DNA of 64,000 nt. Source: Bacteroides zhangwenhongii (GTDB lineage: Bacteria; Bacteroidota; Bacteroidia; Bacteroidales; Bacteroidaceae). The notes beneath the pieces were generated by a model. It saw nothing but the letters and a program-made list of their open reading frames with translations, was not told the origin of the DNA and did no database searches. Below are positions 33,999-35,662 of the stretch, one piece after another. The position numbers and the translations under genes are program-made. Location: assembly GCF_009193325.2 (NCBI RefSeq), contig NZ_CP059856.1:1240001-1304000 (forward strand), in the 5' to 3' direction. The number at the start of each line of letters is the position of its first letter. Within the stretch, counting starts at the first letter, position 1.

Positions 33999-34583
33999 TT
34001 ACAAAACTCCGGAGCGTACGCGGCTCAAGGTCTCCGGTGTCATCAGCAGGTAAGAGGCTATGTATGCCAAAGGAGCGCGTTTGATGATTTCCGGATGCGT
34101 TTCGAGCAGGAGATTATAGCGTTCGCGGGCGGATTCAAAGCGCCAGGAATCAGCTTTGACTTGTGATACAATTAAAGAGTATTCCAATATTTTCTGATAG
34201 AACATATTGATTTCCCAATTTTCTCTCGCCAGCTTCTGTATCATGTCGCGGGGGAAAAGGTAGATAATGGAAGGTTCCAGTGTCTCCACTATAAGCCGGG
34301 TAGGTACTTGCTTCAAGAAGCTTTCAATGCACATCACGATACATCCTTCGTAAGAGAAATGCTCGGTAACGTCTTTCCCGTTTTTGTAGTAGTATTGTCT
34401 GAGCATACCTTTACCGACGAATACAATCTCGTGAGCGACCTCTCCCTCATTCAATGCAATGGCTCCTTTGGGAAACTCTTCACGGATCAGTATACTTTCT
34501 ATCTGCCGTCTTCCCTCTATACTCATTTCCGGAAAGCGGGAATTTACAACGGCATTTACAGTTTCTCTTAACAATGTATCCAT
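33999..34583 (-). CDS. Crp/Fnr-family transcriptional regulator
   Basis: 194 residues. The cyclic-nucleotide-binding-like beta-roll spans about 20-115 (EFPKGAIALNEGEVAHEIVFVGKGMLRQYYYKNGKDV). The dimer helix covers about 120-150, and a short winged helix at the C-terminus has the recognition helix MTPETLSRVR. This E-x-x-S-R arrangement is the FNR-type contact set for TTGAT half-sites. There is no N-terminal Cys cluster for an FeS cluster, so oxygen sensing as in E. coli FNR is not supported. A perfect TTGAT-N4-ATCAA box lies between this gene and its divergent neighbour, close to both promoters, so autoregulation is likely. Confidence 0.9.
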   Translation of the reverse strand: MDTLLRETVNAVVNSRFPEMSIEGRRQIESILIREEFPKGAIALNEGEVAHEIVFVGKGMLRQYYYKNGKDVTEHFSYEGCIVMCIESFLKQVPTRLIVETLEPSIIYLFPRDMIQKLARENWEINMFYQKILEYSLIVSQVKADSWRFESARERYNLLLETHPEIIKRAPLAYIASYLLMTPETLSRVRSGVL

Positions 34584-34605
34584 GTCTTTTTTGTTTTGGT
34601 GTGTG

Positions 34606-34613
34606 CAAAAATA
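34606..34613 (-). promoter_or_regulatory. Promoter -7 element of the Crp/Fnr gene
   Basis: TATTTTTG on the minus strand, exact TAnnTTTG, 23 bases before the ATG. The region where its -33 should lie is covered by the FNR-like box. Confidence 0.6.
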
Positions 34614-34623
34614 CTAAAAACGG

Positions 34624-34637
34624 TTGATATAAATCAA
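34624..34637. promoter_or_regulatory. Perfect FNR-type operator TTGAT-N4-ATCAA
   Basis: TTGATATAAATCAA is a perfect palindrome of the FNR consensus form. Its centre (34630.5) is about 40 bases upstream of the expected start of the lipoprotein transcript, the class II activator position. It is about 31 bases upstream of the expected start of the Crp/Fnr transcript, a position expected to repress. Confidence 0.7.
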
Positions 34638-34656
34638 TTGCAGCACAAAAAAGATG

Positions 34657-34664
34657 TATATTTG
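34657..34664 (+). promoter_or_regulatory. Promoter -7 element of the DUF4843-like lipoprotein gene
   Basis: TATATTTG, exact TAnnTTTG, 28 bases before the ATG at 34692. There is no TTTG at -33; the FNR-like box occupies that place. Confidence 0.65.
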
Positions 34665-34691
34665 TTATTAAATCAAGATATAGAAAAGATT

Positions 34692-35420
34692 ATGAATAAG
34701 ATAATAGGATTGGCAGTATTGCTGCTATGCGTTTTTGGCTGTGCGAAGGATGATGATGCGATTTATTATCCGGTAGGCAATGTAGATATTGAAAGGGGTG
34801 GTGTCGCTCTGGAAGATGGAAAGGGAGAATTGGTAGCCGGGAGTTATAATGAGGAGGATTATGTGCTGGATACGCTGGCGCAGTATCCGGGAGATCCAAC
34901 TCTTGGCAAACTGACGTTTATGATTGATCTGAAGAATCAGTTGGCGAGACAGGAAGCTGACGGATTTAACGGAATCGGTAAATCGGGATTGACAATGAGT
35001 CTGGGATATAAAAATGGTGACTATCCGTCGGAGAGCCAGATACCTGTTTATACTTCTCCTGATATAACTGCTGCGTATGCGGTTAAACTCCGTTTAAAAG
35101 GGGAGCTTGCTTTGGCGGGAGAATGGATGATTGATTACATTTATGTGCAATTGGCTGGCTTATTTCAACCTTATCCGCCTGCGTCCTTTCCCGAAGTGTT
35201 TATGTGTAAAGGTGGTGAGCAGCCATTTGCTGCTTTTGACTCTTTCCGTAGGACTTGGACATTTGATATTACTTATAACCGTTCCGGTCTTTCTTTCAGT
35301 CAGTTATATTTCAATTTATTCTTGAATCTGGCAGGACAGAAACGGGAAGAGAGAATTAGGTTGAGGATTGATAAAGAATCTTTTTTTGAGGTGTATAAAT
35401 TAAACGAGGAAATGAATTGA
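34692..35420 (+). CDS. Lipoprotein, DUF4843-like
   Basis: 242 residues from the ATG at 34692; an in-frame ATG at 34596 is rejected because it precedes the promoter and would bury the signal peptide. The lipoprotein signal MNKIIGLAVLLLCVFGC is followed by AKDDDAIYYP. The rest is beta-rich with the spacing seen in Bacteroides DUF4843 proteins (LGKLTFMIDLKNQ, YAVKLRLKGEL, RSGLSFSQLYFNLFLNLAGQKREERIRLRI). Function unknown; such lipoproteins often sit with outer-membrane uptake genes, which are absent here. Its stop codon lies in the loop of a hairpin that also ends the opposing tRNA transcript. Control by the divergent Crp/Fnr regulator is likely. Confidence 0.8.
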   Translation: MNKIIGLAVLLLCVFGCAKDDDAIYYPVGNVDIERGGVALEDGKGELVAGSYNEEDYVLDTLAQYPGDPTLGKLTFMIDLKNQLARQEADGFNGIGKSGLTMSLGYKNGDYPSESQIPVYTSPDITAAYAVKLRLKGELALAGEWMIDYIYVQLAGLFQPYPPASFPEVFMCKGGEQPFAAFDSFRRTWTFDITYNRSGLSFSQLYFNLFLNLAGQKREERIRLRIDKESFFEVYKLNEEMN

Positions 35421-35434: not shown

Positions 35435-35437
35435 GTG

Positions 35438-35509
35438 TAGTGGGTACGAGAATCGAACTCGTATTACATGCGTGAGAGGCATGTGTCCTAACCGTTAGAC
35501 GAACCCACC
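35438..35509 (-). tRNA. tRNA-Glu (anticodon CUC)
   Basis: A 72-base cloverleaf on the minus strand. The acceptor is GGTGGGT/ACCCACT (first pair G-U), the D arm GTCT..GGAC, the anticodon stem CATGC/GCATG with loop CTCTCAC giving anticodon CUC, and the T arm ACGAG-TTCGATT-CTCGT. CCA is not encoded. It has no own promoter visible and lies downstream of tRNA-Ser, separated by a hairpin. Confidence 0.93.
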
Positions 35510-35559: not shown

Positions 35560-35575
35560 TTATTTTGAGATTTTG

Positions 35576-35662
35576 CGGAAGCTGGGGGATTCGAACCCCC
35601 GGTACCCTTACGAGTACGTCAGTTTAGCAAACTGGTGGTTTCAGCCACTCACCCAAACTTCC
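35576..35662 (-). tRNA. tRNA-Ser (anticodon GCU)
   Basis: An 87-base class II tRNA on the minus strand. Acceptor GGAAGTT/AGCTTCC, anticodon loop TTGCTAA giving GCU, a long variable arm (GTAC..GTAC stem), T arm GGGGG-TTCGAAT-CCCCC and discriminator G. CCA is not encoded. An excellent promoter lies about 30 bases upstream. Confidence 0.95.

Follow-up and report, generated by a model that had tools for sequence, protein, structure and literature searches.

An FNR-type palindrome in Bacteroides that may link a cluster-less Crp/Fnr regulator to its own promoter and to MATE efflux genes

The window analysed here, a stretch of 64,000 nucleotides from Bacteroides zhangwenhongii, holds a gene for a Crp/Fnr-superfamily regulator and, divergent from it, a gene for a DUF3845 lipoprotein (Table 1). 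A preliminary description had placed a perfect TTGAT-N4-ATCAA palindrome, hereafter the box, between two TAnnTTTG promoter elements, one for each direction. Sequence search confirmed the perfect box, the sole copy in the window, and both elements are present. With up to one mismatch allowed, the window contains two matches to the motif against a mean of 5.07 in shuffled sequence, so that there is no enrichment at that level. The regulator begins at the ATG at 34583, with TATTTTTG in front of it on the minus strand, and 27 bases separate TATATTTG from the lipoprotein ATG at 34692. The lipoprotein reading frame extends mechanically upstream to a TTG at 34596, crossing the box; the ATG, where the signal peptide starts, was for that reason preferred. 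The lipoprotein gene is closely followed by tRNA-Glu (ctc, 35437-35509) and tRNA-Ser (gct, 35575-35662), both on the minus strand.

Table 1. Features of the divergent regulator and lipoprotein genes, in window positions
Feature	Position	Strand	Remarks
Crp/Fnr-superfamily regulator, 194 aa	33999..34583	-	PF00027; recognition helix PETLSRVR
Regulator -7 promoter element TATTTTTG	34606..34613	-	24 bases from box start to its TA; box overlies -33 region
Palindromic operator (putative) TTGATATAAATCAA	34624..34637	.	Reads TTGATTTATATCAA on regulator strand; kept in orthologous regulator promoters
Lipoprotein -7 promoter element TATATTTG	34657..34664	+	Box start 33 bases upstream of TA
DUF3845 lipoprotein gene, 242 aa	34692..35420	+	PF12956, 414.5 bits; PDB 3gf6; lineage-restricted divergent neighbour

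The regulator matches PF00027 with 31 bits (cut-off 27.5), the N-terminal cyclic-nucleotide-binding-type β-barrel of Crp/Fnr proteins. Its predicted structure, made from an alignment of 52 sequences, has a pLDDT of 92.2 and matches structures of both FNR and CRP, the best fold match of the model among solved structures being a variant of A. fischeri FNR. The model predicts a C-terminal helix-turn-helix, with helices at residues 172-179 and 183-190; from residue 181 onward pLDDT is lower, at 65 and then 45 in the two final blocks. No helix-turn-helix Pfam family is listed for the protein up to an E-value of 1, presumably because its C-terminus is short: the chain stops just past the recognition helix PETLSRVR. 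The only solved structure found by sequence, a cyclic nucleotide binding regulatory protein from Cytophaga hutchinsonii (PDB 3dn7, E = 8.6e-11), has a similarly short C-terminus but its aligned helix, TPEYLSEIR, is without the S-R pair.

The recognition helix of FNR bears an E-x-x-S-R pattern, formed by E209, S212 and R213. As the preliminary description had pointed out, the same pattern is present in PETLSRVR, and its residues E184, S187 and R188 are invariant across 52 sequences, orthologues and more distant homologues together. Among the seven cNMP-type proteins of the genome, this regulator is the sole one with E-x-x-S-R and also the sole one preceded, within 160 bases, by a TTGA-type box. 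FNR also has four cysteines as iron-sulfur ligands, three of them near the N-terminus. Read by eye, the regulator has only C81 and C85 and no cysteine in its first 80 residues, so that the FNR-type cluster ligands are absent, as had been claimed. Because these ligands are missing, oxygen sensing by the regulator is unlikely, and sensing through an iron-sulfur cluster was rejected. The regulator is matched at E ≤ 1e-40 in 111 of 158 genomes of the genus, a few of them at 41-58% identity only.

In the available text of PMC7366714, TAnnTTTG elements are described as centred near -7 and an upstream TTTG as lying near -33. Distances between box and promoter are given here from the start of the box to the TA of TAnnTTTG, and box centres follow from the -7/-33 rule, that is, from predicted start sites. 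The orthologous loci compared were the best 80 of 122, all named, and 200 bases upstream of each regulator were scanned. A perfect TTGAYN4RTCAA occurs in 23 of these 80 (reversed control 0) and a site with at most one mismatch in 33 of them (reversed control 1). All 23 perfect boxes start 22-25 bases before the TA, and the box therefore covers the -33 region of the regulator promoter, its centre being at about -26 to -29. The overlap with the -33 region that had been proposed for the window thus holds in many species; the repression proposed along with it is a reading of position. The outer half-site of the box coincides in the regulator promoter with the TTG position of a -33 element, and this outer TTG may serve as that element. 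The sequences that follow the box vary by group (CCGTTTTTAG, ATCTTTTA, GAATTTTG) and, because of these differences, conservation of the box is more than overall similarity. Among the same best 80 of 122, the perfect box is missing from 57 loci, mostly the more distant ones, and 47 are without even a one-mismatch box, though the helix does not vary among the 52 sequences aligned.

When palindromes with four-base halves were counted in an unbiased way, TTGA-N6-TCAA came first upstream of the regulator, in 23 of the 80 loci (best 80 of 122), with the next at 16. For 67 regulators at most 77% identical it ties with TTTG-N7-CAAA at 14; with five-base halves, TTGAT-N4 leads by 11 to 7 in the same 67. 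The half-site information, drawn from 20 MATE and 23 regulator rows that were chosen for holding the box, arises partly by construction. Homologues of about 50% identity from Dysgonomonas and its relatives (L198, L201, L204 and L205) carry ATGAYN4RTCAA 39-40 bases before their own TAnnTTTG, a distance that differs from the 22-25 of Bacteroides regulator promoters.

Across the genome (5.32 Mb) there are 21 perfect TTGATATAAATCAA-type sites, compared with three for the pattern read backwards. Beyond the site in the window, 16 of the other 20 are inside an ORF and four outside; the box alone is for this reason weak evidence, and the genome-wide count was rejected as proof. It is position and conservation, rather than presence, that give the window's box meaning. 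A whole-genome scan for the box near TAnnTTTG had been proposed as a check. Strict boxes followed by TAnnTTTG within 1-31 bases number four genome-wide (reversed control 0), and two of the four are the two faces of this region. The sole other non-genic strict pair (L064/L233; 2893051-2893090, minus strand) has TTGACGCAAGTCAA 32 bases before TAAATTTG. Elsewhere in the genome, a perfect TTGATATAAATCAA at 4856917-4856930 (L049/L237) precedes a SusC-like gene and has no TAnnTTTG at the expected distance. The nuo gene cluster, which has a perfect TTGATATAAATCAA upstream, directly after the stop codon of the preceding gene, was rejected as a conserved target: a full or variant site is found in L067, L069, L072 and L073 but is missing in five close relatives (L068, L070, L071, L074 and L077).

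A second copy of the box in this genome, TTGATTTATGTCAA, is found upstream of a MATE exporter gene, MATE-1 (L230), which scores 175.2 bits against TIGR00797 (cut-off 147.4). A search of 99 genomes gave 42 with a match, from which 30 orthologues were fetched, 29 of them with at least 100 bases upstream; L266, with 89 bases, was excluded from the count. The box is perfect upstream of MATE-1 in 17 of 29 cases, against 0 of 30 for the reversed control, and its centre is variable: the spacing among the 17 is exactly 36 in ten and 58-59 in seven, corresponding to predicted centres of about -40 and -62. For comparison with the regulator, 35 genomes (G000 included) were listed as having the box at the regulator promoter. 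The MATE-1 box is present in 17 of 23 genomes with the regulator and in none of six without it (Fisher p = 0.0019, kinship of the species ignored); the species are related, so that box counts across orthologues are not independent. In regulator-bearing genomes the box is missing from six of the 23 MATE-1 genes, and the six regulator-less genomes are 71-98% complete, so that some absences may be gaps. Counting palindromes with four-base halves again places TTGA-N6-TCAA first (17 of 29, the next having six), while five-base halves give no clear leader (TTGAC-N4 and TTGAT-N3 five each, TTGAT-N4 and another four each).

A different MATE gene, MATE-2, which likewise scores above the TIGR00797 cut-off, is the regulator's neighbour in 13 of the 80 named loci (best 80 of 122), which belong to the groups of B. 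cellulosilyticus and B. clarus and to related ones. Its box is perfect and at exactly 36 in 11 of the 13 (10 of 10 promoters in one reading, plus L151), and L169 has a one-mismatch box at 36, which brings this spacing, with its predicted centre of about -40, to 12 of 13 promoters. The exception is L146, where TAnnTTTG is present upstream of MATE-2 without a box and the regulator is boxless too. The L146 frame is cut short, not at a contig end, and the MATE-2 match in L191 and L197 is split over two or three frames; in these three, a disrupted gene or an assembly error may be the cause. One box stands between the divergent genes in L161 (B. clarus) and L153 (B. propionicigenes), 24-25 bases from the regulator element and 36 from that of MATE-2. 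The layout of one box between two divergent promoters, described earlier for the window, therefore recurs, but the partner there is MATE-2 and not the lipoprotein.

An AraJ-type MFS gene (589 bits, cut-off 499) has an identical box at spacing 52, centred at about -56 by the same rule, in this genome and in three of three close relatives with enough upstream sequence. Six more distant orthologues were without such a box, although L220 has a site with one mismatch, differently spaced. The spacing of 52, like that of 32-34 at the lipoprotein gene, falls outside both the 36 and the 58-59 classes. TTGAYN4RTCAA near TAnnTTTG recurs in relatives at hexuronate-type MFS, SusC-like and glycerate-kinase-like genes (L114, L115, L118-L121, L122 and L125), and repeated TTGATGTATATCAA-like copies lie upstream of an AraC-type gene in L117. 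These boxes were left unassigned as targets of this regulator, other regulators being likely.

The lipoprotein gene was found in eight of 60 genomes of the genus, all of one species group, and in all eight it is divergent from the regulator and adjoins it; in G009 (B. acidifaciens) the TAA is the gene's own end. In G044 only a readable signal-peptide remnant is left, beside a retained regulator and a box with one changed base (TTGAATTATGTCAA), and the box is also retained in species without the gene. Given this persistence, the eight-in-60 distribution and the boxes at the MATE-1, MATE-2 and MFS genes, the earlier claim of a single lipoprotein target does not hold. Among 11 named lipoprotein-bearing loci TTGAYN4RTCAA is perfect in seven, has one mismatch in three and two in one, so the conservation expected of orthologous regions is seen in seven and marred in four; the substitutions in L132-L135 are in the lipoprotein-proximal half-site. 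The block from the box to the lipoprotein TAnnTTTG is well conserved. The spacing is 32-34 in the window and in 10 of the 11 loci (window included: 33 in eight, 34 in one, 32 in two), and L136 has no TAnnTTTG at the expected place.

The site of a class II activator replaces the -35/-33 element, with its centre near -41.5. Activation of this kind had been proposed for the lipoprotein gene, whose promoter, as the proposal would have it, lacks a normally spaced -33 TTTG. The centre of the box is predicted at about -37 and not at the -40 first given; the spacing of 32-34 as against 36 at the class II-like boxes, together with the lipoprotein-proximal substitutions, leaves the proposal uncertain. 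These data suggest that the lipoprotein gene is a possible extra target, a local addition to the regulon. That it is co-regulated through an atypically spaced box is conceivable, and we put the chance a little below even. According to the accessible part of PMC10434189, iron depletion raises BT_4233, a DUF3845 gene, and BT1232, a 'hypothetical protein', is likewise listed as raised; neither could be matched to this lipoprotein, and a link to iron was set aside.

The regulator resembles FNR in its Crp/Fnr fold, its E-x-x-S-R helix and the TTGAT-N4-ATCAA box that it is predicted to bind, and also in having boxes at class I and class II-like positions. Unlike FNR it has no N-terminal cysteine ligands, its chain ends after the recognition helix and its conserved targets would be efflux genes: it is a predicted FNR-type DNA reader but not FNR. 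Two other Bacteroides members of the superfamily are described in the available portions of the literature. HcpR2 (PMC1274295) likewise has no iron-sulfur cysteines, a small regulon and often an adjoining target, but differs in its motif (GTAACnnnnGTTAC), its target, hcp, and its specificity residues. The Crp protein BT4338 (PMC3878776) similarly has a candidate site upstream of its own gene, but its motif (TATGTTnTAnAACATA) and its carbohydrate gene targets are different. MATE-1 and MATE-2 are MATE multidrug exporters (TIGR00797; NorM and BexA types), likened by family only to BexA, which is mentioned in the accessible text of PMC11300592. No report of this regulon was found in open-licence PMC texts, where some queries were unable to match the spelling Crp/Fnr, and the words Crp and Fnr are absent from the main text, as available, of an expression-network paper (PMC12596196).

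How, then, should the box be understood? If the palindrome had arisen by chance beside an ordinary promoter, its TTG would simply be the -33 element, as the position of the outer half-site in the regulator promoter allows, and 16 of the 21 perfect genome boxes do lie inside ORFs. However, the second half-site is kept as well, the spacing is fixed although the flanks differ between species, the reversed-pattern controls gave 0 of 80 and 0 of 30, and the first TTG of a MATE box, 36 or 58-59 bases ahead of the TA, cannot be the -33 element. A chance origin is already contradicted by the regulator, MATE-1 and MATE-2 box data, and we consider it scarcely credible. We regard the box as very probably a true operator. 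It might still be read by another Crp/Fnr paralogue, or by some other regulator of FNR-like sites, with the adjacent regulator gene a mere target. Several readers may indeed exist, to judge from the similar boxes before SusC-like, hexuronate-type MFS and AraC genes in relatives, and many regulator orthologues are boxless. Against a different reader stand the confinement of E-x-x-S-R to this one of seven proteins in the genome, the absence of the MATE-1 box from six of six regulator-less genomes, the physical linkage of MATE-2 to the regulator in 13 loci and the different motifs published, in the text available, for the two other Bacteroides members. We think a different reader unlikely; on sequence grounds the adjacent regulator most likely operates the box.

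An alternative of another kind concerns how far the circuit reaches. The box with both TAnnTTTG elements and the near-constant spacing of 32-34 in the window and in 10 of 11 lipoprotein-bearing loci, the conserved block from box to TAnnTTTG, the lack of a -33 TTTG at the lipoprotein promoter and the adjoining position of the two genes in eight of eight cases among 60 genomes would all suit a dedicated circuit confined to two genes, with the box repressing the regulator and activating, as a class II site, nothing but the divergent lipoprotein gene. Yet the box outlives the absence of the lipoprotein and persists, with one changed base, where the gene is deleted (G044); conserved boxes also mark an MFS gene and both MATE genes; the lipoprotein spacing is 2-4 bases off the 36 of the class II-like targets; and it is the lipoprotein-proximal half-site that the L132-L135 substitutions strike. 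A circuit of two genes only is accordingly quite improbable. The data suggest instead that the box mainly controls the gene of the regulator itself and efflux-pump genes, the lipoprotein being a local addition.

We therefore return to the adjacent regulator as reader of a box with several targets. A regulator dimer would read TTGAY-N4-RTCAA through its E-x-x-S-R helix. The positions of the box suggest that the regulator gene is repressed and that the MATE pumps are activated, by a class II or class I mechanism. At its own promoter, with the box over the -33 region, bound regulator would most likely repress its gene, and the layout fits autoregulation, probably by repression. At the MATE promoters, where the box is centred at about -40 (class II) or -62 (class I), activation is most likely. 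The AraJ-type MFS exporter is perhaps activated too, in this clade only. The autoregulatory box would have become shared with the divergent lipoprotein gene, which is perhaps co-regulated from it, at an atypical spacing. The switching signal might be an exported compound or a linked stress. Taken as a whole, this explanation, with a regulator-operated box, self-repression, MATE activation and a lipoprotein gene sharing the autoregulatory box, appears likely to us from positions and conservation. On balance we also favour, with less assurance, the broader proposal of a hitherto undescribed Bacteroides regulon. In it, a cluster-less Crp/Fnr protein would act through one FNR-type palindrome whose distance from the promoter takes three set values: the position over -33 would bring self-repression, and those near -40 and -62 activation of MATE genes and, in one clade, of an MFS gene. 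The local partner of the regulator would be exchangeable, MATE-2 or the DUF3845 lipoprotein using the same shared box.

If this is true, a widespread and seemingly uncharacterised Bacteroides regulator would be given its operator and regulon, together with a physiological direction: the control of efflux. The fixed distances of the box make repression and activation directly testable against each other, and a reporter built on the operator could reveal the inducing compound.
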